A stretch of 64,000 bases of DNA from an uncultured Clostridia bacterium (lineage in GTDB: Bacteria; Bacillota; Clostridia; Lachnospirales; Lachnospiraceae). The notes beneath the pieces are model-generated. The model was not told the origin of the DNA and did no database searches. It was given only the letters and a program-made list of their open reading frames with translations. Where the stretch lies: assembly GCA_947303805.1 (NCBI GenBank), contig CAMYZE010000004.1, positions 1-64,000 on the forward strand, given 5' to 3'. Below are positions 2,577 to 49,057 of this stretch, one piece after another; positions within the stretch are counted from its first letter, which is position 1; every line of letters starts with the position of its first letter. The translations under genes were made by a program, and so were the position numbers.

Positions 2577-3573
2577 TTAATTTTCTATTTTTGTTTCATC
2601 AGTAATGTCAATAATGTTTTCAGGATCATTTTCAGCAGCATCTTCAATCAATGACATTTTCTTAAGTTTCAAATCTCTTTCAAACATATCAGGTGATCTG
2701 TATCCAAGTGTGGAGTGTAGCCTTCTAGGATTATAAAACCCTTCAATGTATCTAAATATAAGTGCCTTGGTCTCTTCAAATGACTGAGGTTTCCTTTGGT
2801 ATAAACACTCCTTTTTAAACGAAGCATGGAATGACTCCTGACTCGCATTGTCAGCACAAGAGAAAACTATTCTTGTATAAGAACATCTAGCTTTATGGTG
2901 AAATGCAAAATCTTTATATCTATCAGACCTATATTGAGCACCCTTGTCGCTATGAAGTATGAGCCCTTTATGAGGGTGTCTCGTTTCATAAGCTCTGTGA
3001 AGCACTCTCAAAATCAAATCAGTTGTCATATTTCTTGAGAGTTCATATGCTATCACCTTCCTCGAATAGTAATCCATAACTGATGCCAGATATGCGTTAC
3101 TTCCATCGCTTAATTTAATATATGTAACATCTTGAGTCCATACTTGATTTACATCATTTACATTTGTATCCTTTGCAATATTTTTAAGCCGCAAATATTC
3201 ATGATCTTTAAAGCAAGTTCTTTTATATCTAAACTTCTTGTGAACTATGGAACATATGTTCAGTTCTTTCATATAATTATGAATGGTTTTTCTCGCAACC
3301 ACATAGCCTTCTTCACGAAGTGCGCAAGTAATTCTTGGGGACCCGTAAGTACCATAAGATCTGTCATATATGTCAAGCATAGCTTTTATAATCTTGATTT
3401 TTCTTGTGTTTTCTTTAGGAATATAGTACTTATAATGATAATAACTTGACCTTGAATATCCAAATAATTTTGCCAATCTATTGATAGAGGTATTTTTGCT
3501 AATTAATTTTATGTTAATGAATACTTTTTCAATTACTTCCCGCTTTCCGTAAAGAAGGCATATGCTTTTTTTA
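2577..3573 (-). CDS. IS3-family transposase OrfB, made as OrfAB by -1 frameshift
   Basis: DDE integrase-type transposase. After an HTH_21-like start (KIIKAMLDIYDRSYGTYGSP), the rve core shows the first Asp in VWTQDVTYIK, the second in LILHSDKGAQYRS, and the Glu in NASQESFHASFKKE: the D,D(35)E triad. The frame downstream of M-like TTG 3476 is open upstream without a stop to the A7G run at 3567-3573, and no ATG with a ribosome site exists. Reading CTA AAA AAA, then slipping back one base, joins OrfA residue ~EMLKK to the orfB frame (SICLLYGKREV). The catalytic residues are intact, so the element may still be active. Confidence 0.85.
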
Positions 3574-4111: not shown

Positions 4112-5473
4112 CTATTCCCAAGTTGCAGTAATTTGTGCACCATCACTAATAGTTACATACTTTTTATTGTCTTTTGTAATAGTTCTATCATATTGACATT
4201 TAATATAATAAGTCTTATTCGTATTACATCTAAATTCGACTGTCATTTCTTTTCTACTTGGAAGTTTATACTTGAATTTTTTTCCATCAGAAGTTTTGTA
4301 TTCTGTACTCTCATCAGAAAGACTATTAGATATTAGTTTTACATTTCCATAAAAATCATCTTGATTACTAAACGGCTCATCTGATATTGCAACATATACT
4401 GAACCCGTTGATTCTATAGCATTGTTACTATATCTATTAAAGCTTAATTTTTCAATTTTTACTTTACCATATCTAGCTGTGCTACATAATTGCACTCCGC
4501 CAAATAAAGTATTTTTGTATTGTGTTCCATAGTAAAAACCGGGAGTAAGTTGGTCATACTTACGGCTTGTCTCAGTATTCCAGCTATATACATCTATATT
4601 TTTTATTCTTATATATCTTGCAGTTCCACCAGATGAAGTATACCCTTCTTGGTTCGACTCTGTTCTTTTCCTTGCATTCACTTTTTTATAATTATCTGTT
4701 GACAAAAACACTTTGTTTGCGGTTGTGTCTATTGCACCAGATGAAGTCCACCAATCTAGCATCAGCTCTGATTCCTTATACTCTCTATAAATTGATACAT
4801 ATGAGTCAATCTTTGTTCTTGTACTTGATGGAAGTATTATTGCTGCACCAAGTTCCTGCCCTCCATTACCAAAAGGATAAGTTTGAATACTTTCTACAGT
4901 TGAACCACCCGTCCACCAGGCACCACTGTAGCAAGCCTCAACTGAGCCAACCTCGTATGACTCTAAATACTTATTTCCATCATTAATATATTTTATAAAT
5001 TGCCCTTTAGTTCCTTTTCCCCCCGAAGAACTCCAAAAATTAGATCTGTTATCACCCATAATTGCAGCTCTCTTGGCGTAGGCATCTAAAACAGAATAAC
5101 CCTGCTGATCACCATTTTGAAAAAATAATGCAAGTCCCGTTACAGGATTAACAGTCGGAGCTATATTCGGTTTTCCGAATTTTATGGCACTTCCGCCAAG
5201 GTTTTGATATATGTTAGTTAATTTTTCAATTCTATCTATTCTAATTCCTGCAAGATAAGAAGCTATGCTAGTATCAATTTTATTATCTATAGATGAATAA
5301 AAATTATCGATTTGAGCTTGAAAATTGTTTTTTAGGCTATCAAACTCAGCTTTTGAAATGAAAGCTGAACCATCATTATCAGCAACTGTTACCGCAAAAG
5401 CATTACAACTGATAATTATGACTGCAAAAGTTATACACAATACTTTAAATATTTTATTTCTCTTTTTACTCAT
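4112..5473 (-). CDS. secreted protein with EF-hand-like N-terminal segment (paralog 2)
   Basis: 453 residues. The signal peptide is about residues 1-27 (ending CNAFA). The EF-hand-like loop DNDGSAFISKAE is at 32-43, followed by the shared amphipathic helix to SYLAGI. The body is clearly homologous to the next gene upstream (5466-6851) along its length: both have FGKPNIAPTVNP, YPFG, GQFIKY and a C-terminal YYIKCQ.DRTIT block. The pair is therefore a tandem duplication. Its ATG overlaps the stop of the upstream paralog by 8 bases, so the two are translationally coupled. No enzyme motif is recognised; a beta-rich extracellular protein is likely. Function unknown. Confidence 0.85.
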   Translation of the reverse strand: MSKKRNKIFKVLCITFAVIIISCNAFAVTVADNDGSAFISKAEFDSLKNNFQAQIDNFYSSIDNKIDTSIASYLAGIRIDRIEKLTNIYQNLGGSAIKFGKPNIAPTVNPVTGLALFFQNGDQQGYSVLDAYAKRAAIMGDNRSNFWSSSGGKGTKGQFIKYINDGNKYLESYEVGSVEACYSGAWWTGGSTVESIQTYPFGNGGQELGAAIILPSSTRTKIDSYVSIYREYKESELMLDWWTSSGAIDTTANKVFLSTDNYKKVNARKRTESNQEGYTSSGGTARYIRIKNIDVYSWNTETSRKYDQLTPGFYYGTQYKNTLFGGVQLCSTARYGKVKIEKLSFNRYSNNAIESTGSVYVAISDEPFSNQDDFYGNVKLISNSLSDESTEYKTSDGKKFKYKLPSRKEMTVEFRCNTNKTYYIKCQYDRTITKDNKKYVTISDGAQITATWE

Positions 5474-6851
5474 ACTTTGCTATAATCTCCATTCCATCTT
5501 TTATACACACATATCTGAAATTGTTTGCCGTTATTGTTCTATCAACTTGACACTTAATATAATATGTCTTATTAACCTTGCAGTTAAACTTTATATTTAT
5601 ATCTTCACTGGATGGAATATAGTATTTATATGTTTTACCATCGCTAGATGCAATTTCGGTTGTTTTTGCTTCTGCACTGTTCTCTGTTATTTTCACATTA
5701 CCAAAGAAATCGTCCGTATTTGTAAACGGCTCATCACTAATCGCAAAATATATTTTCCCTGTAGACAGTTTAGCTTTTTCAGCTGCTGTGTCCTTTTCAT
5801 ATCTCAAAAAATTTAACTTGTTTAGTGTTATCTCACCATTCTTATCTGATTCACAAAGTTGAACTCCTCCATATAAATTATTTTCATACTTTTTCCTATT
5901 ATAGAACCCCGGAACCAATTGATTATAATTACGACCAGTTTCAGTGTTCCAACTATATATTCTAATATCCGTAATTTGTATGTGGTTTGCTGAGTGACTA
6001 CCATAATTTGTAGTCCCTGTAGCATTGGGTGCAGTCCACATTCTACTATTTAATTTCTTAAAATTGTCTGTTGATAAAAAAATTTTATTGTTTGAAGTGT
6101 TTATAGATCCAGAACTAGTCCAATATTCTAAATTCAACTCACTATACTTAACTTCCCTATATATAGATATATAAGAGTCAACATTCGATCGATAACTAGA
6201 ACTTAAAATGATTGCTTCTCCAAGATTCTGTGCACCAGTTCCAAAAGGATATCTCTGCTTACAATATTGTACTTCACTTTTACCCGTCCACCACCCTCCA
6301 CTATAACAAGCTGCTGCACTACCTATATAATATGAGTATAGATATTTCTTTCCACTATTTGCAGTATATTTAATAAATTGGCCTTTTTTGCCACCCCCAG
6401 TAGAATTCCAAAATAGATCATTATTCTCTCCCATAATTGCACGGCGTTGTCTATCAACAACATTTACACCAAATCGATCGCTATTTTCAAAGAATAAAGC
6501 ATGACCTGTCAGTGGGTTAACTGTAGGTGCTATATTTGGCTTTCCAAATTTTATCTTACTGCCACCAAGCAATTGATATATATTGTCTATTCTTTTTTCT
6601 TCTTGTAACTTTATACCTGCAAGATATGCAGCTATAGCACCGTCAATTTTACCATCAATACTCTCTTTATATGAGTCAATTTGTTCAGCAAAATTATTTT
6701 TAAGAGCTTCAAATTCGGCTTTTGTCACAAAAGCCGAGCCATCATTATCACTTACAACTGCCGCAAAACTATTTATACTCAATAACAATACAAAAATAAG
6801 GCACAAAGCCTTCTTTGCCATTTTCAATCTATTTACTATCATCCATGTCAT
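5466..6851 (-). CDS. secreted protein with EF-hand-like N-terminal segment (paralog 3)
   Basis: 461 residues from the ATG at 6851; an ATG at 6821 (MAKKALC) would give a cleaner signal peptide. The EF-hand-like loop DNDGSAFVTKAE and helix to AAYLAGI match the other two paralogs. The body pairs closely with paralog 2. The leader upstream holds a 114-bp imperfect palindrome (6864-6977) and repeat copy B. Start choice is uncertain: GGTAGGT lies 7 bases before the first ATG, and no good site precedes the third. Secreted; function unknown. Confidence 0.8.
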   Translation of the reverse strand: MTWMIVNRLKMAKKALCLIFVLLLSINSFAAVVSDNDGSAFVTKAEFEALKNNFAEQIDSYKESIDGKIDGAIAAYLAGIKLQEEKRIDNIYQLLGGSKIKFGKPNIAPTVNPLTGHALFFENSDRFGVNVVDRQRRAIMGENNDLFWNSTGGGKKGQFIKYTANSGKKYLYSYYIGSAAACYSGGWWTGKSEVQYCKQRYPFGTGAQNLGEAIILSSSYRSNVDSYISIYREVKYSELNLEYWTSSGSINTSNNKIFLSTDNFKKLNSRMWTAPNATGTTNYGSHSANHIQITDIRIYSWNTETGRNYNQLVPGFYNRKKYENNLYGGVQLCESDKNGEITLNKLNFLRYEKDTAAEKAKLSTGKIYFAISDEPFTNTDDFFGNVKITENSAEAKTTEIASSDGKTYKYYIPSSEDINIKFNCKVNKTYYIKCQVDRTITANNFRYVCIKDGMEIIAKYE

Positions 6852-7121: not shown

Positions 7122-10100
7122 CTATCCCAAATAATCAAATATCGTATTTTGCTCTTTTTCTTTCATACCTTTAAAGAATCCTAGTTCTTTCATAATTTCA
7201 AGTATAGTTTTGTTAACACCTGTTCTCTTACTAAAGTTTTCTATGGAACTATACTCTCCTCTCTTTCCTTCTATCTCACACTTCATAGCTGTACTCTTAT
7301 CTAACTCTTGTACTTCATCATTATAGTCTATATTTATATCTTTAGTTCCAACTCCTGGTATAGAATCAAATGATGGCATAATCTTCCCATCGATTACTTG
7401 AAAATCACTTCTCTTAGCCTTATATATGTCTATAGGACAAAAATCTATACCTCGCGCCTTCATCTCTTCAACCACCCTATACACCATATATAAATCATAT
7501 AAGTTCTTCGCAGACATGCTCTCGTATTTTTTTGTTATATTGGCCTCGTCATCGGCATTTCCTTCCGTATCTATAGTATCAACTGAAACTAAAGTATCTA
7601 ATTTGTCTAATACTTCTTTTTTTTCTTGCTCTTTTAATTTTGCACTGAAATCTTTATCATTACTTTTTTCATTAATAATTCTCTTTATCTTAGCTATATG
7701 ATAAGTTATGTCTTCTTTATCTTGCATAATAAGTCTATAATCAATCCCATCTTTTCTCACTGAAAAATAGGTAGCATAATATTCTTTTGGGTAATGAACC
7801 TTATAGTAAGCAATCCTAAGCGATGCAAGGACATATGCTGCAGCATGCGCCTTAGGGAACATATACTTAATTTTCTTACAACAACCTATATACCAATCAG
7901 GCACATCGTGAGCTTTCATTTCATCAATCCATTCATCCTTTAAACCTTTTCCTTTTCTCACGCTCTCCATTATATTAAATGCAAGACCCTTATCTAGTCC
8001 CTTATCTATTAGGTAAATCATAATATCATCTCTACAACAAATAGCAGAACTAAGAGTGCAATCGCCATTTTTAATTAGTTCTTGAACATTACCCTGCCAC
8101 ACATCTGTACCATGGGCAAGTCCTGCAATCCTAATCAAATCAGCAACTGTATTTGGCTTAGCATCCTCACACATATTCATTGCAAAGTCAGTTCCAAATT
8201 CTGGTATAGATAGGCAGCCTAATTTAGTATTGCTAATATCTTTTGAAGTAATTCCTAAACTAGTTGGATCTTTAAAGAGTCTTAAAACTTCTTCTTCGTA
8301 AAATGGCACTTCTAAAAAATTTGTTCCGGTAATCTCTCCAAGTTTTTTTAAGATTAGTGGGGCATCATGTCCAAGTATATCAAGCTTAAGTAAATTTTTA
8401 TCTATCTTGTGATAGTCATAATGGGTTGTTTTTTCATTTCCAATCTTATCAGCAGCAAGCTGTATAGGAGTAAATGTATATATCTCCTCACCCTTAGGAA
8501 GCACAACCATACCGCCAGGGTGTTGACCTGTGTTATTTTTACAATCTAAAATCTGTGTGACAAAATAATTAACTTGTTCCTTTGTCAAAGTCCTTTTTTC
8601 CTGCTCAGCAAACTTATTTACAAATCCATAGGCAGTCTTTGCAGCCACAGTTCCTACAGTCCCCGCTTTAAAAGTGTTCTCTTCACCAAACATATCTATA
8701 GTCTTTTTATGAATATTTGACTGAAATACTGAGCAAAAATTTAAATCTATATCGGGTTCCTTCTGTGCAGCCTTATCACCTGGGATACCAAGAAAAGTTT
8801 CAAATGGAATATTTACTCCATCCTTTGTCATTTTTGTCCCGCAATTTGGACAATTCTTATCTGGCATATCAAAGCCAGTGTCGTTATCATACTTTCTTGT
8901 CTCCTCTGTGTCATATTCTATGTGGTGACATTTTGGGCAGATGTAATATGGTCTAAGTGGATTAACTTCTGACACGCCAAGAAGAGTTGCTGCAAAACTT
9001 GAACCTACCGAACCTCTTGAACCTACTGGGTACCCATTCTCATTTGAGAAATCTATCAGCTTCTTCGCAGCTATATACATAACTGAATATCCATTATCAA
9101 CTATGTATTGTAATTCATTATCAAGGCGATTCCTAACTTCTGGAATGTCATTGTCGCCAAAAATATTCTTATACCTTTCATGGCATACATCTTTAAGCTC
9201 ATCATCGCTTCCCTCAATATGAGGAGGACATTTATCAAGTCTTAGAGGGATAATCTCTTCTATCATATCATTAATCTTATTAGTATTTGTAATTACAACT
9301 TCTTTAGCCTTATCTATGCCGAGATATGTAAACTCATCAAGCATTTCTTTTGTGGTCCTAAAATATAATTCCTCATCACTAGTGCTCTCAAGCCCTTCTG
9401 CAACTTCAGTCTTAAGTTTTCCTTCTGCGTCTGTATTAGACTTTTTATATGTAGTTCCTATTCTGAGGATGTTTCTGTAAATCTTGTCGCCTTTTTCTAC
9501 ATAATGGCAATCGCAGGTAGCAACTACAGGTTTACCTAGACTATCCGCAATCTCTACAACTTTTTTATTTAAATCTTCTAAATCTTTTATGCTCTTAAAA
9601 TTTTCCTTATCTTCTACAAGTAAAAATGAATTGTTGAGCACCGGTTGTATCTCAAGATAGTCATAATACATTGCTATACTCTTTAAGTTTTCATCGCTTG
9701 CACCATTTCTTATAGCATTCATAAACTCGCCGATTATACAGGCAGAACCAATGATTAATCCTTCTCGATATTTATTTATAAGCGATCTCGGCATTCTTGG
9801 TCTCTTATTGTACATATATTTTATGCTTGAATCAGACACTAGTTTATAGAGGTTGACTCTACCAACATCATTTTTTGCAAGTAAAATTATATGATAATAT
9901 GGTTGTCTTCTTATAAATTCATCAGTGATTTTAAGTTTGTCTCTTAACTCTGATAAACTTTTTACCTCATAATCTATCTGGAGCATACGAAGAAGTGAGC
10001 AGAATATTGGTCCTTCAAGTTGTAATTTTTCCTTTGCTTTAAGGTTCCGCCTCATCTCATTCTTTTTTCTATCAGTAAGACCTTCTATCTTAATCTTTAA

Positions 10101-11903
10101 TTCTTTTGCAACTGAAATCAAATCACTTCTTTTTAATTTTGGTAGAAGAAGCCTTGCAAGTGTCATAAGCTCAAGTACATCTATACTACAATTTAATCCA
10201 TTCTCTTTAAGAATATCGGTTATCATCCAATTTGGATTAAACTTTGAAGTCACAAGCACAGAATCTTTTGCAAAATCAATAAGACCTTTAAGCGCCTCTT
10301 TCAAACCTTCTGCATTTATTATATCGCTTTCTTTTACACCCGTATTATCCCTTATAGTGACGTTTATTGGCTTATCACTATGAACAAACTTTACATAACT
10401 ATCAGTGACTGCAAAATCACTTACCTTTATAGCCTCTATCTTTATTATGTCGTCATTTTTCTTGTTTAGACCAGTTGCTGCTATCTCAAATATTACAAAA
10501 TCTCCACTAAGATTATGTTCGCGAGTAGAAAAACTATTATTTTCATCTACATAGTAATTTTCAAAATCTTCAACTAAATATCCTTCTACTCCATAAATCA
10601 ATTTAAACTTTTGATTTTTTCTTGGTCTATTCTTGTTGCCTAGATATTCATAGGCATCTGCCAAAGCATTTACACAGCCGTGGTCAGTTATAGCCATAGC
10701 TGACATGCCAAATTTTGTAGCAGTATCTATATATGACTTTACTTCCCCAACGCCATCTTGAGCACTTGATTTTGTGTGAAGATGAAGTTCCACTCTCTTC
10801 ACTGGCTCATCATCAGTTCGACTAGTTATAAATATATTGTGATAATCTTCTTCCCCCACATGACCAAATTCAATAACCTCTCTTGATGACACCACTTCAA
10901 TACAAGAAAGGCCCATAGGGCCGATTGTCATACCACCTGAAAATGAATCATACTTAGCATTACCACAAACCCTCACCTCTGAACCAATTTTAAATCTCAA
11001 ATTAAATAATGCCTCATCCTCGACATTTCCAAAGAACTTTACTTCTATACAACCTTCGCCATCGTAAATGAATAGTGAATATATTATGGAGTCTCTTTTT
11101 GTCTTGTTGCTATGTTTTATATTGTAAATTACTCCAATAGTTTCTATGTTGTCCATGTCATAAAGAATGTTGGATATGGCTACAAACTTAAATCTGCCTT
11201 TAGCTTTTTTACCATATAAAATATTGCCTTCTGCAAGTATACCATTTTTCTTCTTTCTATATGATAAATTAGTACTTTCAATTGGTGATACATCATTTTG
11301 TGTATCACCTGTAACTTCAGTATTTATACTCTGGATATACTGGTCTTCTCTCTTATTTTTCAAATCATTAGTGTAATCAATTAAGTTGACTCTAATTTCA
11401 AATGGCTGATTGTATCTATTTACGAAAACATCTTTAATGCTATCTATCAACTCATCTTGAGAACCCGATAGTTCTTTTGATTTTACAAAAGTAATCTCCA
11501 TGGTGTCATCATTTATAAATTTTATGTTGTCATTTCTAAAAAGTGCTGCATAGATCAGTTTCTTTTCTTTTAATTCATCAAAAAGACTTCGTCTAATCTC
11601 ATCATATATCTGTTTTGATCTATATTTTTCTGATAACTTGTACCTAATATTGAGCCTAATAGGGTTCTCAAAATATATGTTTTTTCTCTTTTCATCCTCT
11701 AGATTTATATTTAATAACTTTTTTGCCATTATTTCTCTTAGAGCTTTCAAATTATCATAGGGAATTAAATTATATGATACAAGATAAAAATTGAGAGTAT
11801 TTAAAGCCTTGTTCGTTTTAATACTCTCAACTTCTACATCGTTAAAATATTTTACGATGTTTTCATCTAAATCAATTTTTACTACATCAAAGAACCTATC
11901 CAT
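7122..11903 (-). CDS. polC: DNA polymerase III alpha subunit, PolC type
   Basis: 1593 residues from the ATG at 11903, which directly follows the rseP stop; a longer frame to 11951 would overlap rseP. Order: N-terminal region, OB fold (~240-350), PHP domain (ELHLHTKSSAQDG), inserted DEDD-type exonuclease region (~465-640), rest of PHP (VVATCDCHYVEKGDKIYR), polymerase core (PVGSRGSVGSSF; Zn-type CPKC..CPNC; EPDIDLNF with catalytic Asp), helix-hairpin-helix tail. It replicates the chromosome as the Gram-positive replicase. The exonuclease motifs are degenerate: motif I is EIA at 473-475 instead of DxE, and neither HNxxFD nor the final H..D can be found. Proofreading by this subunit is therefore doubtful. 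Confidence 0.95.
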   Translation of the reverse strand: MDRFFDVVKIDLDENIVKYFNDVEVESIKTNKALNTLNFYLVSYNLIPYDNLKALREIMAKKLLNINLEDEKRKNIYFENPIRLNIRYKLSEKYRSKQIYDEIRRSLFDELKEKKLIYAALFRNDNIKFINDDTMEITFVKSKELSGSQDELIDSIKDVFVNRYNQPFEIRVNLIDYTNDLKNKREDQYIQSINTEVTGDTQNDVSPIESTNLSYRKKKNGILAEGNILYGKKAKGRFKFVAISNILYDMDNIETIGVIYNIKHSNKTKRDSIIYSLFIYDGEGCIEVKFFGNVEDEALFNLRFKIGSEVRVCGNAKYDSFSGGMTIGPMGLSCIEVVSSREVIEFGHVGEEDYHNIFITSRTDDEPVKRVELHLHTKSSAQDGVGEVKSYIDTATKFGMSAMAITDHGCVNALADAYEYLGNKNRPRKNQKFKLIYGVEGYLVEDFENYYVDENNSFSTREHNLSGDFVIFEIAATGLNKKNDDIIKIEAIKVSDFAVTDSYVKFVHSDKPINVTIRDNTGVKESDIINAEGLKEALKGLIDFAKDSVLVTSKFNPNWMITDILKENGLNCSIDVLELMTLARLLLPKLKRSDLISVAKELKIKIEGLTDRKKNEMRRNLKAKEKLQLEGPIFCSLLRMLQIDYEVKSLSELRDKLKITDEFIRRQPYYHIILLAKNDVGRVNLYKLVSDSSIKYMYNKRPRMPRSLINKYREGLIIGSACIIGEFMNAIRNGASDENLKSIAMYYDYLEIQPVLNNSFLLVEDKENFKSIKDLEDLNKKVVEIADSLGKPVVATCDCHYVEKGDKIYRNILRIGTTYKKSNTDAEGKLKTEVAEGLESTSDEELYFRTTKEMLDEFTYLGIDKAKEVVITNTNKINDMIEEIIPLRLDKCPPHIEGSDDELKDVCHERYKNIFGDNDIPEVRNRLDNELQYIVDNGYSVMYIAAKKLIDFSNENGYPVGSRGSVGSSFAATLLGVSEVNPLRPYYICPKCHHIEYDTEETRKYDNDTGFDMPDKNCPNCGTKMTKDGVNIPFETFLGIPGDKAAQKEPDIDLNFCSVFQSNIHKKTIDMFGEENTFKAGTVGTVAAKTAYGFVNKFAEQEKRTLTKEQVNYFVTQILDCKNNTGQHPGGMVVLPKGEEIYTFTPIQLAADKIGNEKTTHYDYHKIDKNLLKLDILGHDAPLILKKLGEITGTNFLEVPFYEEEVLRLFKDPTSLGITSKDISNTKLGCLSIPEFGTDFAMNMCEDAKPNTVADLIRIAGLAHGTDVWQGNVQELIKNGDCTLSSAICCRDDIMIYLIDKGLDKGLAFNIMESVRKGKGLKDEWIDEMKAHDVPDWYIGCCKKIKYMFPKAHAAAYVLASLRIAYYKVHYPKEYYATYFSVRKDGIDYRLIMQDKEDITYHIAKIKRIINEKSNDKDFSAKLKEQEKKEVLDKLDTLVSVDTIDTEGNADDEANITKKYESMSAKNLYDLYMVYRVVEEMKARGIDFCPIDIYKAKRSDFQVIDGKIMPSFDSIPGVGTKDINIDYNDEVQELDKSTAMKCEIEGKRGEYSSIENFSKRTGVNKTILEIMKELGFFKGMKEKEQNTIFDYLG

Positions 11904-11904
11904 C

Positions 11905-13083
11905 TTAATTAAACAAATTTCCTGACAATAATTTATATATGTCCATTCCAAAAATCCAAATCATAAATATCAATAATAAAAGCATCGTAACTGTGTTTGC
12001 AAATCCCTCTACATCTTTATTTATAGGTTTACCTGTAATCATCTCAATGGCAGCAAATACTATTCTTCCACCATCAAGAGCAGGTATAGGAAGTAGATTC
12101 ATAACTCCAAGATTTGCTGATATCAGTACTATCATAGTTAAAAGTGTATATATCATAGAAGTAAAACTTATGGCATTTGCCTCACTAATTGCAGTTCCCA
12201 TGACGGCCACTGTCCCAACCGGTCCCGAGATATCCTTGGCACCAAGTTTACCCCTTACTAGCATTCTTAAACTCATAATGGTAGTCTTAATATAGAAGTA
12301 AAACTCTCTTGCAGCAAACTTACATGTGTCGATAAAACTTTTCGGCATTTGATACATGTCTTCAAATGATATTCCTATCATTGCCTTATTATATGTCTCA
12401 TCGTATGTAGGATATACCACTGTCTTTAAAATTTTTCCATCCCTCTTAAAAGTAATGGCAAGTGGATATTTTTTATCTAAAATATCATCATTATTTAATT
12501 GCATGAAAATAGCTAAGTCTCTATAACTTATGATTGTTTCTTTCTCACCTGGGATTTCAAACTCAATTATCTCATCACCTTTTTCAAGTACTACCGGAGT
12601 GGCATTTGCTGCCGCACCATCATTTGAAACACTCGAAATAATAGGAATGTCAAATCCAATCCGTGACACTAGTATAAATGCAAGTAAAAAAGCGAGTAAA
12701 AAATTCATAAAAGGTCCCGCAAGACAGATTAAAAATTTTTTCATTGGAGAAATTGACTGAAAGTTATACTTTTCCAAATCTTCTTTACTAAACTTCACAC
12801 CTTCAAAGTCATAGAGCCCATTTTCATCCACCTTGACATCCTCGTACTCTATCATATCTCCGCTACCGGCTGCATCCTCACCTATCATGGCACAACTACC
12901 TCCAAAAGGAAGGGCTTTAAGACTATATCTAGTATTATTCACTACTTTCGACAAAAGCCTTGGTCCCATACCTATAGAGAACTCTCTCACAGGCACTTTA
13001 AAGGTTTTAGCCATAATAAAGTGACCAAACTCATGAACCGTTATAATTAGTCCTAAGACTAAAATTGCTATAATTATACTCAT
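11905..13083 (-). CDS. rseP: site-2 (RIP) zinc metalloprotease RseP/RasP
   Basis: 392 residues, peptidase M50B. HEFGH at residues 17-21 binds zinc. AGPFMNFLLAF marks the second conserved helix, a PDZ domain lies in the middle (~165-250), and LLPIPALDGG (ending ~339) supplies the third zinc ligand Asp. It cuts membrane-spanning segments of anti-sigma factors and signal-peptide remnants. The gene reads directly into polC, an arrangement seen in many Firmicutes, though ispG is missing between them. The -10 box lies only 7 bases before the ATG, so the mRNA is probably leaderless. Confidence 0.92.
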   Translation of the reverse strand: MSIIIAILVLGLIITVHEFGHFIMAKTFKVPVREFSIGMGPRLLSKVVNNTRYSLKALPFGGSCAMIGEDAAGSGDMIEYEDVKVDENGLYDFEGVKFSKEDLEKYNFQSISPMKKFLICLAGPFMNFLLAFLLAFILVSRIGFDIPIISSVSNDGAAANATPVVLEKGDEIIEFEIPGEKETIISYRDLAIFMQLNNDDILDKKYPLAITFKRDGKILKTVVYPTYDETYNKAMIGISFEDMYQMPKSFIDTCKFAAREFYFYIKTTIMSLRMLVRGKLGAKDISGPVGTVAVMGTAISEANAISFTSMIYTLLTMIVLISANLGVMNLLPIPALDGGRIVFAAIEMITGKPINKDVEGFANTVTMLLLLIFMIWIFGMDIYKLLSGNLFN

Positions 13084-41421: not shown

Positions 41422-41754
41422 ATGAAACTAATGTATATAATAGTTAGGCAAGATAATGAAGCAGATGTGGTAGATGCCCTTATAAATAAAGGCTTTCGCA
41501 TAACTAAACTTGCTACTTCTGGCGGTTTTTTGAGGAAGGGCAACACAACTTTATTTAGCTGCCTTGAAGATAAGGATGTCGATACTGCAATAGAGATAAT
41601 AAAAAATGAGTGTGGACACACTCAAAAAATACAGGTCGATATGCCTATAAATCTCCCTTCAACAGCCATCAATTATACTACTTTGCCTACAACCATAGAA
41701 GTTGGCGGTGCTACCATAATAGTAACTGATGTATATAAATTTGAAAGATTCTAA
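41422..41754 (+). CDS. darA: c-di-AMP-binding PII-like protein
   Basis: 110 residues, normal for DarA/PstA. MYIIVRQDNEADVVDALINKGFRITKLATSGGFLRKGNTTLFSCLED holds the ligand loop (ATSGGFLRKGNTT). The C-terminal strand IEVGGATIIVTDVYKFERF completes the fold. It binds cyclic di-AMP in the cytoplasm; targets are unknown. Monocistronic with a clean promoter. Its last bases overlap the convergent pbpC stop by 4. Confidence 0.93.
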   Translation: MKLMYIIVRQDNEADVVDALINKGFRITKLATSGGFLRKGNTTLFSCLEDKDVDTAIEIIKNECGHTQKIQVDMPINLPSTAINYTTLPTTIEVGGATIIVTDVYKFERF

Positions 41755-44042
41755 GAAGTCTTTTCTATAGAGAACTTAGTTTTTACCACCTCACCATCCT
41801 CTGCCATGATGGTGAGTGTATGTTCTCCAATACCAAGTTCTATTTCTTTTTCAAATGACTTATCTATACCTATAAACTCTTTATCTAAATACCAATAAAT
41901 ATCTTGATTTTTTAGATTTGCAATCTTAACTATCAATTTTTGTTCCTTATCCAAATCTTTTGGCAACAAAATTTTTAAATTTGGTGTAGGATATAAAATC
42001 TTAAGACTCTTCTCTTTTGAATTTGTGTGATATATCTCTGACACATCCCGATTTTCTCTTATGAAGTAATTTACAACTTCAAGTGGGTAGTTCATAATAA
42101 CTTTTTCATGACTATTTGCAAAGTCTGGACTTCTTGAATCTATCTCAACGTCATTGTCATCAACATATATTTTTTTATAAAATGGTGATATTTTTAATGG
42201 CTTCGCTTTGACTGGAAACTTTATAGTCTTAGTTTCAATCCCATCAATATCGATACGATAACCTGTAATTTTATCGACTTTAATGTTTTCCAATTCATAA
42301 TAAGGCTCTTCAAATCTCTTATTACTATTCTCTAGTTCCTCGAAAACATTGAAAAGAAGTCTTCCTCCACTTATTACACCTGATAAGTTTTCGTTACTCT
42401 TACCAGAAAAATTTCCAACCCACACTATGACAGTGTAATCTGGGGTCATACCACAAGCCCAAGCATCTCTTTTGCCATAACTAGTGCCTGTCTTCCATGA
42501 TATAGGGTCTTTCCATCTATATAGATTATTAAGTCCTGGTCGGACCAGTTCTTTGAGTGTATCTAGAGTTAAGTAACTAGCGCCCTTAGAGAACATCGTT
42601 TTACTTCTGCCATTATTGTTACTATCTTTTTTCATAAGATAATTAAGACTAGTTAGACTGCCATAATTTGCAAGTCCCGAATAGAGCATAGCAATCTCTT
42701 CAACCGAAAACTCTTTTGTCCCTAAGATAAGAGATAAGCCATACTTTTCTGGATCATTTTCATCAAAGCCAAGCATATCCTTTAAGAAATAATAAAACTT
42801 ATACTCACCATACTGATCTAGTAAATGTACAAATGGTATATTGAGCGACGAAATAAGTGCCTGCCTCGCCTCGACCATCCCAGTGTATTTTTTGTTTGCA
42901 TTTTGAGGACTGAAATTTGCAAAAAACATTGGCACATCTTGAACAAGTGACTCAGGAGCTATCATCCCCTCATCAATTGAAAGAGCGTATAAAAATGGCT
43001 TAAGTATAGAACCCGGTGACCTTTTTGCTATAACTCCATCTACCTGTCCTTCATTCTCCATATCCATAAAATCTTGCGATCCAATGTATGCTTTTACATT
43101 TCTTGTTTTATTTTCAACTATAAGCATAGCAGCATTGGTGATGCCTTCAGAATGTGTATAACCAACATAGGATTTAACTATTTCCTGCATCCTTTTTTGC
43201 AAATCATAATCAATAGTTGTCTTTATCACCTTATCTTTTTCAGTATTAAAGAGGCGACGAGCTAGGTGTGGCGCCACTCTCTCAAAAGGATATCTATTAT
43301 CTGGAAGTGGCTCTTCTTTTGCAAGACTAAGTTGTTGCTCTGTTAGTTTACCCTTTTCATATAGTTTATCTAGTAAATTATTTCTTTTACTAATTAGTCT
43401 CTCATGATTTTTTTCTACATTCATAGCACCAGGTGAATTTGGTAATACTGCTAGTAGTGCACATTCTGACCAAGAAAGATTTTGAGGCTCTTTTCTAAAA
43501 TACATTCTAGCTGCTGTCCCATAACCAACTATATTCCCGCCATAAGGTGCATTATTTAGATAAAGTTTAAGTATTGTGTCTTTATCAAGTTTTGTTTCAA
43601 TTTTAAGTGCTTGAATGATTTCTATAAACTTATTTATATAAGTTCTTTTTTTAGGAGCTGAAAGTTTTGCAACCTGCATAGTGATAGTGCTTGCTCCACT
43701 TCTCTTTCTACCTATAAAGTTATTTTTAAATGCTCTAACTATAGCAAGAAGGTCTACGCCATGATGAGTATTGAAATTTTTATCTTCATAAGTCAAGACG
43801 GCTTCTTTTAAATTCTCACTTACATCACCTTCAACTTTTAGATGCCACTGTTCATCGCTAGTTAAGAATACATCCATAAGTTTTCCATTTGCATCTAGTA
43901 TTGATGTGCTGTATCTTTTTTCTATGTCCTCTTGCATTTTATATACATCGAAACTTATGAAAATTGCCAAAGAAAATACAATGAGCATTAAAAACAATGC
44001 GGCAATGACTATTATTAGTTTTTTTAATAATTTATTCTTGAT
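41751..44042 (-). CDS. pbpC: penicillin-binding protein 1C, apparent ATC start
   Basis: 763 residues from ATC at 44042. AGGAG lies six bases upstream (44053-44049) and the frame then reads KNKLLKKLIIVIAALFLML, a normal basic start plus membrane anchor. The next possible start, TTG at 43997, lacks a ribosome site and cuts into the anchor. Glycosyltransferase 51: EDKNFNTHHGVD and RSGASTITMQVAKL. Transpeptidase: SILK (SxxK), SLN, and KTGTSYG. A C-terminal BiPBP_C-type domain ends the protein. It polymerises and cross-links peptidoglycan. Lies just downstream of the alpha-2-macroglobulin gene, its usual partner. Confidence 0.88.
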   Translation of the reverse strand: MKNKLLKKLIIVIAALFLMLIVFSLAIFISFDVYKMQEDIEKRYSTSILDANGKLMDVFLTSDEQWHLKVEGDVSENLKEAVLTYEDKNFNTHHGVDLLAIVRAFKNNFIGRKRSGASTITMQVAKLSAPKKRTYINKFIEIIQALKIETKLDKDTILKLYLNNAPYGGNIVGYGTAARMYFRKEPQNLSWSECALLAVLPNSPGAMNVEKNHERLISKRNNLLDKLYEKGKLTEQQLSLAKEEPLPDNRYPFERVAPHLARRLFNTEKDKVIKTTIDYDLQKRMQEIVKSYVGYTHSEGITNAAMLIVENKTRNVKAYIGSQDFMDMENEGQVDGVIAKRSPGSILKPFLYALSIDEGMIAPESLVQDVPMFFANFSPQNANKKYTGMVEARQALISSLNIPFVHLLDQYGEYKFYYFLKDMLGFDENDPEKYGLSLILGTKEFSVEEIAMLYSGLANYGSLTSLNYLMKKDSNNNGRSKTMFSKGASYLTLDTLKELVRPGLNNLYRWKDPISWKTGTSYGKRDAWACGMTPDYTVIVWVGNFSGKSNENLSGVISGGRLLFNVFEELENSNKRFEEPYYELENIKVDKITGYRIDIDGIETKTIKFPVKAKPLKISPFYKKIYVDDNDVEIDSRSPDFANSHEKVIMNYPLEVVNYFIRENRDVSEIYHTNSKEKSLKILYPTPNLKILLPKDLDKEQKLIVKIANLKNQDIYWYLDKEFIGIDKSFEKEIELGIGEHTLTIMAEDGEVVKTKFSIEKTS

Positions 44043-44052
44043 TGTTATCTCC

Positions 44053-44082
44053 TGCGGGCTCGCATAGCTCGCCCCTACGATA
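44053..44082. repeat. REP-like dispersed repeat, copy between the A2M gene and pbpC
   Basis: Minus strand ATCGTAGGGGCGAGC then TATGCGAGCCCGC. Its TAG forms the stop codon of the alpha-2-macroglobulin gene, and its other end runs into the pbpC Shine-Dalgarno. Confidence 0.65.
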
Positions 44083-47000
44083 CTGTAACTTTTCCACCTT
44101 TCTTATATGCGCGGTAGTTGTTGTCATACATAGCTTCAAGAACTGTGCCAGGGAAATCATATTCTCCCTTCGTCACAGCATTAATTTTTACAAAGAATCT
44201 ATGTTCTTCTTTACTGCCATTGTAGTTAAAGAACCACATAACTCTATCATCTCTTATATCTGTATAAGTTGGGTTTGTGCCTTTTGTCTTCTCTTCTATC
44301 CACTTAGGCGCCTTAGAGTCAGTAACTCTCAAGTTCTCTATCTCCCAACCAGTTGGAAGTATTTGGTTTATTGCTATATTTTCAAGTCTATCCATGTTTC
44401 TCTTAGTTGGTTTAACTACTACTTCTAACCAGAACACATCCCCAGATTTTACACTCTTTGCATCCATAGACTTTCCTTCATCATTATAGAAATGTCTATC
44501 TATGCTAAATCCTTCTGAATAGTCTTTTACTTCACTATTTACTGGCACACCTTCCCAATAATAGTTTACATATGTCATAGCGTCAGTACTTGGCTCAACC
44601 TTTATTTTCTTTGCACCCTCTTTAATTTCTAATTTGTATTGACTTGATGTAGTATATGCAGTCTCTACTCCATCAATATTTATAACACCTTGTATAGTTT
44701 CTGCTGCATTTTCTGATGCAATATTTGAAAGTGCAAGTAATGAATAGGCCGTAGTTTGAGTAGAGTACCAGTTCTTAGTTCTCATGGCACTAACTATCTC
44801 ATCAAATGCTTCTTGGTCTCTCTTACCATTTATCGTGTAGTAACAATCAAGATAAACTGCAAGTTCTCTAAGAAGTGAACCATAACTATAACTATAATAA
44901 TATCTATCTCGATTATATAGATTGTCATACATTGTCTTTATACTATTCATATTGATATTAGATGATATGTTTTTAGCAACTGCGTCCTGCCCAATCAACT
45001 TATATGCTGCAGCAAGATACATTCGTGATGTATCATTCATTCTTGAAGCATAGTAGTTCTCATACATATAATTCATCTCACTAACATTTTGCTTTCCAGC
45101 AAGTGCAAGAAGATAAAGTGCATATGACTTCCAGCTAATATCATAATCTGATTGTAAGTTAGTTCCTCGTACCGTCCTCTCTGTATAACCAATCCATTTG
45201 TCATACATTGAATCAGGTAAATAATAGCCATTCTTCTTTGCATATATTAAGAAATGCCCTACATAGTTTGTAGCCCAGTCAGATTTTTGTAGCTCACCAG
45301 GCCAATATGAGAATGCTCCACTTGAAAGTTGGAAGAGTTTGAGTCTTGATATTCCAGCATTTATATTGTCAACTACTTTTTGCTTATCATAATTCTTTGT
45401 CGTAGAAAGTTTATCTATAAATAGTTGTGGGAATATTGAAGAAGTAGTCTGCTCAACACATCCATAAGGATATCTAATCAAATATTTAAGTCTCTGATCA
45501 AGTCCAAGCATCATGGTATTTGAAATTGTTATTACACTGTCAACAGTACCCTTTACATACTCTAAATCCTGAGAGTATTCTGCTACCTGCTTCCCTTTTA
45601 ATTCACTATTTTCACTTATCTCAATAGGAGTGTTGTTGCTATTTATAGCCATTCCCACAGTTTCGTCATAATTGTAAGCATTTGACTTAACTCCAACTGT
45701 GAGCTTCTCATTTCCAATCTCATTTCCAATCTCTTCATCAAAGTAGACTAGCTCTTTATCTCCCTTTGCCAATGTCAAACTTTTAGTTTGAGTTTTACCT
45801 TTAAATGTATAATAGACATCCACATTTCCTATTCCTTCTTCAAGAGCGAATACTGATACAGGTATACTCATCTTGTCACCTATCTTCATGCTACGAGGTA
45901 ATGTAGGTTGCACTATGAGTGGTGCTTTTACAATCATATCTTTTTCTGCCGAACCATAACTATTGCCAGATGCTGCAACTACCATTATACGAACCTGACC
46001 CATGTAATTTGGCATTTCAAAATCGACACTGGCCTCACCCATCTCATTTGTAGTTAGAACTCCCTTAAACATAGAAACTGGTTTAAATCTATCAGCATCT
46101 TCAAGCCCAAGTTCTTTTAATCTTCTTCTCCTTGCCATCTCATCAAGTAGAGATTCGTCCCCTCCAACTTTTAATATCTGATGAACTGCACCATATGGTC
46201 TATCTATCACTTCTGAATAATTATCATAGAGTGTAAGCTTCGCTGCAAGTTTTTGGAAGAAATGTTGCCAAGGATTTGGAGTTTTAAATGCGGTGATATC
46301 AAGTAAGCCTTCATCAACTACAGCAATAGTAAAATCGACTTGCTTTAATTTTTTGTTTTTAACTTTAACAGTAAAGTTTTCATTTGGTCTTATATTATCA
46401 GGTGCTTCTATCTCTAAATCTATCTTTGTATCTTCATCTTCTACAGATAGAGGTATTATTCCATAAAGTCTTAGTGGTCTATCATTTTCTTTTGTCTTAT
46501 AATCCTGTAAAAGTGTTACATAGACGTATACATTTGGAGCCATATCCTTAGTAATATTTATAGACTCTAGCACTTCTGTTTCATTAGCATCTCTATACAA
46601 TTGATCTATTATTTTTCCTGCCTTTTCAATTGTAATTATTGCTTTAGATCCCTTGGCTGCCTTATATCTTATCTGAGCGGTGTCTCCTACAAAATATTTC
46701 TTTTTGTCTGATATCACATTTAAAGTCTCGACCTTTTTTGTGACACTTGGATCCACCCATTCACTTGACTGGAGATTTACACCTGTCACTTGACCTGTAG
46801 TCTCATCTTCAACTTCTACATAGAGATATTCTGCATTTGGTATTATATCTTCAAGTAAAGTTGGTACATCCTGTGTTGTGAACTCGCCTTCATATATAAG
46901 TGTAGTATTTTTATCGCTCTTAAATGAACGAATGAAATCACTATAATCAGAATAATCCCACCACCAATAGTGATCATTGCTATAAAGTCTATATTTTAAT

Positions 47001-49057
47001 TTTTTTCCAGCAACTAATGTCTCTCCATCTTCAGTGACACAGATTGCTTTCAAATCAAGTTTTGACCCTGGTCTCTTATATGTGCTCGTATTTTCAATTC
47101 CTATATAAGTGTCATACTTTTTAAGTTTAATATATTTTTTTGAAGTGACATTTCTTCCTCCGTCTTCTGTGACACGGCCAGATACATCTACAAGCATATT
47201 AATCGAACCAAAACTTACATTGCCAAAATCAGGCATTATGTGCGCAAAACCACTTTTATCCAATGTACCTTCTAAATATTTTGAATCCGAATATCCATAT
47301 GATGACGGAGCTTTAAATGCATAGTCTTTATACTTTTCAAAATTCACTGGCTCTTCTCTTATATCAAATCCAACACCATATTTAAGATTACCCGCAGGCT
47401 CTCCAAATAAATAATTTGCATTTATTGTCCAGTCTGTAATCCCTTGATTAAAATTTACTACTTCAGGTATATTTAGATTAACTTTTATTCGATTTGGAAC
47501 TACAGTCTCTACAGATATATCTTTCCTAAAAGTCTCATCTCCTATCACTGCCTCTAATTTCCATATACCTGTCCTTGATGAAGTTTCAGTTTTAAATGTA
47601 TAAGTATAAAAACCATTCTTGCCACTATTTATTACATCATTTTCAATCATCTTAACACCAGTTGGATCATATATGGTAATTTTTACAGGCTGTTTATTCT
47701 CAAGTTGCTCATCGTTATTCCTTGCTATTATAGATACATATACTGGATCACCTGGTCTATATACACCTCTTTCAGTGTAAATAAATCCTCTTATACCATT
47801 AGTAGCATAGGCACCATCAACTGCAAAGCCATTGGTGTTTAGTGCATTTTTTAACATGAGTATTGACTTACTTTGTACTGTGTCTACTAAGATATAAAAA
47901 GCATTTTTATGATGAGCAAAGTCCACTGTGCCATCAGTATCTGTTGTCTTTTCTTCAAGTACTTGATTATTTCTTGACATGAGATATACTTTCGCACCAC
48001 GCATAAGTCTATTTTCAACTATATCTAGTACATTTACCCTTAAGCCATCATCATTTTTTTGAGCGAGAATTCCAATATCAGTTAAAAGAATAGTTTTACG
48101 AATTCTACCATTGGATCTCAGATAATCTCTATCATCCCAGCTAAGACCTCCATCTTCTCTACGTGCAAACTTATATGAAGTTCCATTCTCATCAAACTTA
48201 ACAAACACTTGGTAGAGCCCATTGGAATCAATTACATCCGAAAGATCTATAGCAGTTTGAACCCAAGTATCAATTTCATTCTCTATGTCAAAGTTAACAT
48301 CATAAAGTTTATCTCCCACATTGTCAAAAGAGTCATAATACATTGAGTAACCATAGTCATCTTCATCATAATAGTCATTATCATAGTAAGAATCGTTGCT
48401 ATAATACCCATTGCCAGAAAAATCAAAGTTCTGCAAGAACTGAGTCATATTATTAGCATAAACCTTTCTTACAACTATATTAACTTTTTTAACATTCATA
48501 CTTCTTATATATACTTTCTTTTCATTAACAGATGGAAGTATGATTCCTTCGCTTGAAAATACAATTTTTGGCTTCTTCTGATCAAAGGCAATTTCTTCTG
48601 TCTTTTCTTCAGTTGAAACTACTCCATCATAAGACCTTACGCCACTTAGGACAGTAACTTTATAAGTCTGAGTTGGGTTAAACTCACCTCGTACCAATAA
48701 TTTTCTATCCACCTTAGAGACTGTAAATGCAATATTAGGATCAATCTTGATATAAGATGAGGCATCAAACTTATCCTGAATTTCTTTTGAAAACTGCACT
48801 TCAACATAAGTGGACTTGTCAGTATCCCTGAAACCTGCAATATTTTGAATTTCCATAGGATCTTTGACTTCATGAACTTCTCTTACAACACTTTCCTTTT
48901 CCACATCATCGTTTTCATCAAATTCACTACTTTCCTCAACCTTAGCAGTCTCATTCCCATTTGTATTATCAATAGTCACTTTTTTTTTGCAAGAACTAAT
49001 TATTAAAATCATAAGTCCTAAGCACAATATTGATAATACTCTCAAAACTCTTTTCAT
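44075..49057 (-). CDS. bacterial alpha-2-macroglobulin lipoprotein (YfhM-like)
   Basis: 1660 residues. Lipobox IISSC with Cys at 23. Repeated macroglobulin beta domains cover ~100-1100 (for instance NGIRGFIYTERGVYRPGDPVY and IKVNLNIPEVVNFNQG). The thioester motif is at C1200-V-E-Q1203 within YPYGCVEQTTSSIFPQL, and the bait region lies just before. After it comes the thioester alpha-helical domain (~1200-1450) and the receptor-like end. It traps attacking proteases covalently outside the cell. Paired with pbpC downstream, which in E. coli is the standard arrangement. Unusual in a Firmicute. The stop TAG is provided by a REP-like repeat. Confidence 0.92.
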   Translation of the reverse strand: MKRVLRVLSILCLGLMILIISSCKKKVTIDNTNGNETAKVEESSEFDENDDVEKESVVREVHEVKDPMEIQNIAGFRDTDKSTYVEVQFSKEIQDKFDASSYIKIDPNIAFTVSKVDRKLLVRGEFNPTQTYKVTVLSGVRSYDGVVSTEEKTEEIAFDQKKPKIVFSSEGIILPSVNEKKVYIRSMNVKKVNIVVRKVYANNMTQFLQNFDFSGNGYYSNDSYYDNDYYDEDDYGYSMYYDSFDNVGDKLYDVNFDIENEIDTWVQTAIDLSDVIDSNGLYQVFVKFDENGTSYKFARREDGGLSWDDRDYLRSNGRIRKTILLTDIGILAQKNDDGLRVNVLDIVENRLMRGAKVYLMSRNNQVLEEKTTDTDGTVDFAHHKNAFYILVDTVQSKSILMLKNALNTNGFAVDGAYATNGIRGFIYTERGVYRPGDPVYVSIIARNNDEQLENKQPVKITIYDPTGVKMIENDVINSGKNGFYTYTFKTETSSRTGIWKLEAVIGDETFRKDISVETVVPNRIKVNLNIPEVVNFNQGITDWTINANYLFGEPAGNLKYGVGFDIREEPVNFEKYKDYAFKAPSSYGYSDSKYLEGTLDKSGFAHIMPDFGNVSFGSINMLVDVSGRVTEDGGRNVTSKKYIKLKKYDTYIGIENTSTYKRPGSKLDLKAICVTEDGETLVAGKKLKYRLYSNDHYWWWDYSDYSDFIRSFKSDKNTTLIYEGEFTTQDVPTLLEDIIPNAEYLYVEVEDETTGQVTGVNLQSSEWVDPSVTKKVETLNVISDKKKYFVGDTAQIRYKAAKGSKAIITIEKAGKIIDQLYRDANETEVLESINITKDMAPNVYVYVTLLQDYKTKENDRPLRLYGIIPLSVEDEDTKIDLEIEAPDNIRPNENFTVKVKNKKLKQVDFTIAVVDEGLLDITAFKTPNPWQHFFQKLAAKLTLYDNYSEVIDRPYGAVHQILKVGGDESLLDEMARRRRLKELGLEDADRFKPVSMFKGVLTTNEMGEASVDFEMPNYMGQVRIMVVAASGNSYGSAEKDMIVKAPLIVQPTLPRSMKIGDKMSIPVSVFALEEGIGNVDVYYTFKGKTQTKSLTLAKGDKELVYFDEEIGNEIGNEKLTVGVKSNAYNYDETVGMAINSNNTPIEISENSELKGKQVAEYSQDLEYVKGTVDSVITISNTMMLGLDQRLKYLIRYPYGCVEQTTSSIFPQLFIDKLSTTKNYDKQKVVDNINAGISRLKLFQLSSGAFSYWPGELQKSDWATNYVGHFLIYAKKNGYYLPDSMYDKWIGYTERTVRGTNLQSDYDISWKSYALYLLALAGKQNVSEMNYMYENYYASRMNDTSRMYLAAAYKLIGQDAVAKNISSNINMNSIKTMYDNLYNRDRYYYSYSYGSLLRELAVYLDCYYTINGKRDQEAFDEIVSAMRTKNWYSTQTTAYSLLALSNIASENAAETIQGVINIDGVETAYTTSSQYKLEIKEGAKKIKVEPSTDAMTYVNYYWEGVPVNSEVKDYSEGFSIDRHFYNDEGKSMDAKSVKSGDVFWLEVVVKPTKRNMDRLENIAINQILPTGWEIENLRVTDSKAPKWIEEKTKGTNPTYTDIRDDRVMWFFNYNGSKEEHRFFVKINAVTKGEYDFPGTVLEAMYDNNYRAYKKGGKVTVS

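Follow-up and report, generated by a model that had tools for sequence, protein, structure and literature searches.

The stretch of DNA analysed here (the window, 64,000 nucleotides of an uncultured Clostridia bacterium of the Lachnospiraceae) carries a polC gene, the features of which are collected in Table 1 together with the loci elsewhere in the genus that bear on it. The ORF encodes PolC, as its product exceeds the cut-offs of both equivalog models, NF001688 (1268 bits versus 873) and TIGR01405 (1164 bits versus 1043). An in-frame TTG at 11951 gives an alternative ORF at 7122-11951(-) of 1609 aa. The genome contains one copy of PolC accompanied by one DnaE, and a second, intact PolC was ruled out, as none was found. 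From inspection of its sequence, the ORF upstream of polC is called an RseP/RIP-like candidate. Residues about 1419-1465 of the window PolC form a segment of ~45 residues between the fingers and the C-terminal HhH region; its identity in the genus core is only 27%, and it could not be aligned with sequences from outside the genus. Elsewhere in the window, two paralogous proteins in tandem (453 and 461 aa), with N termini that resemble signal sequences, are encoded at 4112-6851, and a Pfam search with the first of them gave no match. A transposase of the IS3 type (HTH_21 + rve) lies at 2577-3476, and at 41751-49057 a Penicillin-binding protein 1C-like gene adjoins a bacterial alpha-2-macroglobulin gene, an odd pairing for a Gram-positive relative.

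Table 1. Features of the window polC and of related loci (window positions unless a contig or locus is named)
Feature	Position	Strand	Remarks
polC	7122..11903	-	1593 aa with ATG 11903 as start
ORF upstream of polC	11905..13083	-	N-terminal HExxH motif; overlaps TTG-start polC; homologues in relatives
PHP domain, first half	10575..10793	-	ligands H, H, D, H, E all present
DnaQ-type exonuclease (Exo) domain	9915..10556	-	inserted in PHP; catalytically degenerate, fold kept
Exo motif I, VIFEIAATGL	10467..10496	-	residues 470-479; D to E473, E to A475
Exo motif II region, TSKFNPNWMI	10221..10250	-	residues 552-561; HNAxFD lost
Start of region in place of Exo motif III	10047..10082	-	HxxxxD absent
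PHP domain, second half	9501..9899	-	ligands H, C, D, H all present
Polymerase catalytic region	8364..8762	-	PDIDLNF and LKLDILGHD; three Asp intact
C-terminal QNTIF of PolC	7137..7151	-	position read directly; putative beta-clamp-binding motif
Stand-alone exonuclease	G000:C1:373066-373869 = L001:1456-2259		267 aa; intact DEDDh
Genus MutS1 without tail	L188-L191, L193-L196; own copy L258 = G000:C2:199000-205000

The initial annotation had described this PolC as having a degenerate proofreading site, with motif I reading FEIAATGL (E473, A475), TSKFNPNW in place of HNASFD and no final HxxxxD, and all three observations hold. The numbering in motif I is exact from ATG 11903, and the alignment of motif II pairs the FD of relatives with FN in the window PolC (Asp to Asn). 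The motif III position reads GLTDRKKNEMRR and is unrelated to the HHRAVDDA of relatives; in the genus core this region (GLTDRKK...) is ~10 residues longer than in relatives. The Pfam RNase_T model did not report the Exo domain of the window PolC, and it scores 115-152 bits on the PolC Exo domains of family and order members outside the genus. The two positions altered in motif I correspond to D431 and E433 of Enterococcus faecium PolC, and the engineered D431A+E433A enzyme serves as an exonuclease-null form that still polymerises (PMC12592400). Judged by its residues, the Exo domain of the window PolC is confirmed to be without a DEDDh active site. The PHP and polymerase active sites are normal, as had been annotated, with nine metal ligands and three Asp residues intact. 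The PHP motif HHDHEHCDH is found in 30/30 aligned PolCs including those of the genus, the palm Asp residues (PDIDLNF, LKLDILG) are likewise conserved in all 30, and the alignment places the same nine PHP ligands (HHDHEH[C/H]DH) in the DnaE1 of the genus.

The loss is a property of the genus. The collection comprises 12 genomes of the genus, 11 of them with PolC, and 19 PolCs aligned from other genera. The motif I Glu and the motif III His and Asp are gone in every one of the 11 PolC-bearing genomes, which answers the question, raised with the initial annotation, of whether close relatives share the loss. A complete DxE / D / HxxxxD set occurs in 0/11 genus PolCs, and none of the 19 PolCs from other genera has degenerate Exo motifs. 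Chance or an error of assembly or sequencing was rejected because the loss recurs in 11 genomes, and an artefact is unlikely. Three members (L013, L015 and L016) still carry the motif I Asp (D1), and three others (L011, L012 and L014) that of motif II. Because these residues persist in different members, the shared loss consists of the motif I Glu and motif III, and the alignment suggests that the other Asp residues eroded separately among species. In the genome_contigs set, all readable domain-bearing PolCs outside the genus are DEDHD, and the only degenerate ones (L066-L068, the closest matches at 76-82% identity) belong to members of the genus, Lachnospiraceae MAGs from the foregut of ruminants (rumen, reticulum, omasum). 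The genus consists of gut bacteria with genomes of 1.2-2.1 Mb, and its named members are from ruminant foreguts. In genome G004 (92% complete, 1.2 Mb; L248, L249), neither polC nor an RNase_T-family protein was found; its only DnaE (1284 aa) has a complete PHP site, and it is possibly a DnaE1-only member of the genus. The homologue of the polC-upstream gene in G004 adjoins VanW-like and PFOR genes. In three genomes of the same order (G046, G052, G057) the PolC search yielded DnaE-level matches only, and these are possibly polC-less, or the assemblies are incomplete. In addition, L165:1875-3062 (G002:C14) holds a 395-aa fragment resembling PolC palm/fingers next to an AAA ATPase, with a separate exo-like remnant ~5 kb away; it looks like a mobile island or a decayed foreign polC.

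The Exo domain has retained its fold. The AlphaFold model of the 214-residue domain has a pLDDT of 93.4 and aligns with residues 413-614 of E. faecium PolC over 195 residues (Z 21.5, rmsd 2.5), a result that shows fold compatibility and not independent proof because intact homologues are present in the AlphaFold alignment. Identity within the genus core is 49% for Exo versus 79% for palm/thumb. No other domain declines as steeply in identity as Exo, from 64% among outgroups to 29% between the genus core and outgroups. Pairwise omega is about 0.09-0.18 for Exo versus 0.03-0.08 for palm/thumb (Pol), rough values as dS is near saturation. The fall in identity together with low omega indicates that the domain, without an active site, is under purifying selection that is relaxed and still constrains it. 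Intact DxE and HxxxxD residues elsewhere in the domain, which the initial annotation had named as evidence that would speak against the loss, were looked for in the alignment of the 11 members and no relocated catalytic set was seen; the invariant columns are V21, G29, N31, D35, A42, K62, P63, A82, F95, K142 and K151.

Several known systems resemble this one in part. Canonical PolC (E. faecium 9QPC/9QRN; Thermotoga maritima Exo 2P1J) shares the domain order, the Exo insertion in PHP, the Exo fold, the polymerase triad and the PHP ligands. The PolCs of the genus differ from it in having no DEDDh active site and, in the core, the extra residues at motif III, and the window PolC also in the unaligned segment before the C-terminal HhH region. 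Timinskas et al. (2014) have reported Exo-less PolC variants that make up 6% of PolC and occur almost entirely in Clostridia/Negativicutes (PMC3919608). Full-length examples were found in L103, L108, L110 and L115 (1236-1325 aa), each the sole PolC of its genome with DnaE alongside; L110 and L115 are ruminant Lachnospiraceae MAGs. As in the genus, a PolC without DnaQ-type proofreading is there accompanied by DnaE. However, in these variants the domain is deleted, whereas the genus retains a folded, constrained and inactive module, and the presence of the Exo domain places the window PolC outside the Exo-less class. Pol I enzymes with an inactivated 3'-5' exonuclease (PolA1/PolA2-APEX) likewise keep the DnaQ fold with a dead active site (PMC12926913), but the case described here concerns a replicative Pol III alpha subunit. 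The mycobacterial DnaE1 has the same nine-ligand PHP site and is a precedent for PHP over DnaQ; its activity has been demonstrated, whereas the PolC of the genus is a different polymerase with a PHP activity that is only presumed.

We put at about 0.5 the probability of the explanation that this is a PolC with a dead, retained Exo domain, and that mismatches are removed mainly by the PHP domain of PolC and/or DnaE1. In this reading the window PolC is genuine and replication-competent. Loss of the motif I Glu and of all of motif III would most likely be a single event in the common ancestor of those members that have PolC, with the remaining Asp residues then eroding species by species. The Exo domain would yield no proofreading, and its integration into the PHP domain would be the reason for its retention. 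Mismatches at the 3' end would be removed mainly by the trinuclear PHP metal sites of PolC and/or DnaE1, and MutS/MutL mismatch repair would stand behind PHP proofreading. The proposal in the initial annotation, that the replicase may be without proofreading of its own, stands as regards the integral DEDDh site, but a total lack exceeds the evidence, because the PHP site is intact in the same polypeptide and that of DnaE1 is also complete. A take-over by PHP is plausible by analogy with Mycobacterium tuberculosis, in which the PHP site of DnaE1 is the replicative exonuclease and a bona fide proofreader (PMC5636811). Clostridia mostly have three proofreaders, the PHP of PolC, the PHP of DnaE1 and the DnaQ of PolC (2026 survey, PMC12926913). 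Relatives with the DnaQ site still in place show the same degree of conservation in their PHP ligands, and this conservation is therefore not specific evidence for a take-over. Against it also stands the precedent of Bacillus subtilis, a mutator on loss of the PolC exonuclease: the mutation rate goes up when an exonuclease-deficient polC allele is induced, and by about 6000-fold in combination with deficient mutL (PMC11890065). However, B. subtilis is a PolC+DnaE3 system, with DnaE3 in place of DnaE1, in which PHP sites are often inactive (PMC12926913).

Alternatively, the DnaQ proofreader may have gone unreplaced, leaving a lineage with long-term elevated mutation and only mismatch repair as a buffer, a reading that we consider unlikely. 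It is favoured by the small genomes and by the RpoB tree, in which the genus is monophyletic (100/100) with a stem of 0.40 and long internal branches. However, members of the order with intact exo (G044, G047, G049) are also long-branched, so that RpoB rates neither support nor refute a mutator history; they are compatible with a raised rate and were rejected as proof of it. Loss of mismatch repair genes was ruled out, as the genus has kept MutS1, MutS2 and MutL throughout, and the DQHA endonuclease motif is found in all four genus MutL copies read; their retention speaks against an uncompensated loss, as do the intact PHP sites. In eight genus-core genomes MutS1 stops short of both the clamp-binding motif, which reads QMSLF in relatives, and the oligomerisation tail, and in the deeper branches G003 (L187) and G008 (L252) the tail is kept and QxxLF is absent. 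This truncation alters the fidelity apparatus a second time, independently of the Exo domain, and with clamp motif and tail gone this second layer looks weakened, which favours an uncompensated loss. In Pseudomonas aeruginosa, MutS is non-functional once its C-terminal oligomerisation residues are deleted, but a mutant in the clamp motif performs comparably to the wild type (PMC8744996), and the latter weighs against this reading; the effects of MutS truncation vary between species.

Another candidate is a proofreader acting in trans. A search for DnaQ-like proteins or DnaE, as proposed with the initial annotation, returned for the window's genome one DnaE and a stand-alone exonuclease with an intact DEDDh set. 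The latter, of 267 aa, is the only other RNase_T-family protein above the cut-off; a canonical DnaQ was sought as the second member of the family, and only this ERI1/KapD-like protein was found. The genome also yielded no 3'-5' exonuclease domain of the Pol I type, a situation common in Firmicutes (PMC12926913). That the 267-aa protein now proofreads in trans as epsilon does in Escherichia coli appears quite improbable, although several properties fit. DxE, D and HxxxxD are intact in 9/9 genus copies, the exo domain is followed by a conserved C-terminal tail of ~70 aa, and no close homologue was found in 149 family genomes of other genera. Its identity to the window's copy is 94-76% in the genus core and 48% in G008, as compared with 79-58% and 46% for whole PolC in the same genomes; in core pairs it exceeds whole PolC, DnaE and MutS. 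In addition, it is absent from G004, where polC is also missing. However, the protein is nearest to ERI1-type exonucleases, both in its best sequence matches in the PDB and in predicted fold, with epsilon nearly equal in fold (Z 18.4 versus 19.7 for ERI1). ERI1-type exonucleases have RNA as their substrate. No replication genes are linked within the 3.5 kb read, the model has a pLDDT of only 71, and DLNLLF in the tail, considered as a clamp motif, is unconvincing since it lies in a predicted helix of this modest model.

Less probable still, DnaE1 may perform bulk replication, with PolC restricted in its role and its proofreading no longer under selection. Timinskas et al. have raised this possibility for Clostridia on the grounds that Exo-less PolCs are confined to Clostridia and that some Clostridia are DnaE1-only (PMC3919608). 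The complete PHP site of DnaE1 and the lack of a detected PolC in G004, which is basal in the genus RpoB tree, agree with it. However, the polymerase and fingers domains of PolC share 75-92% identity within the genus core; they are under strong purifying selection, and their conservation is not below that of DnaE. That the Exo domain is still active with rearranged catalytic residues is highly improbable: the fold is preserved and acidic residues are scattered through the domain, but the members share no new set of acidic residues, and a single invariant one, D35, is too few for two-metal catalysis.

PolCs without a working DnaQ exonuclease were known before through deletion of the domain; what is new is the loss of the active site with the domain kept, throughout a genus. 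The genus thereby runs counter to the statement of the 2026 survey that the domain inactivated in Pol III alpha subunits is PHP rather than DnaQ (PMC12926913). Tentatively, replication fidelity may have been rebuilt across the whole genus: the PolC Exo would have lost its activity a single time and persisted as a scaffold, PHP or the genus-restricted DEDDh exonuclease would have taken over proofreading, and mismatch repair would work without the clamp-binding tail of MutS. The genus must correct copying errors in another way or tolerate more mutations. As a natural experiment it can show whether the PHP domains of PolC+DnaE1 (Clostridial) replisomes act as proofreaders, which polymerase performs the bulk of synthesis in them, and how a lineage survives in the long term without an exonuclease whose loss turns B. 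subtilis into a mutator.
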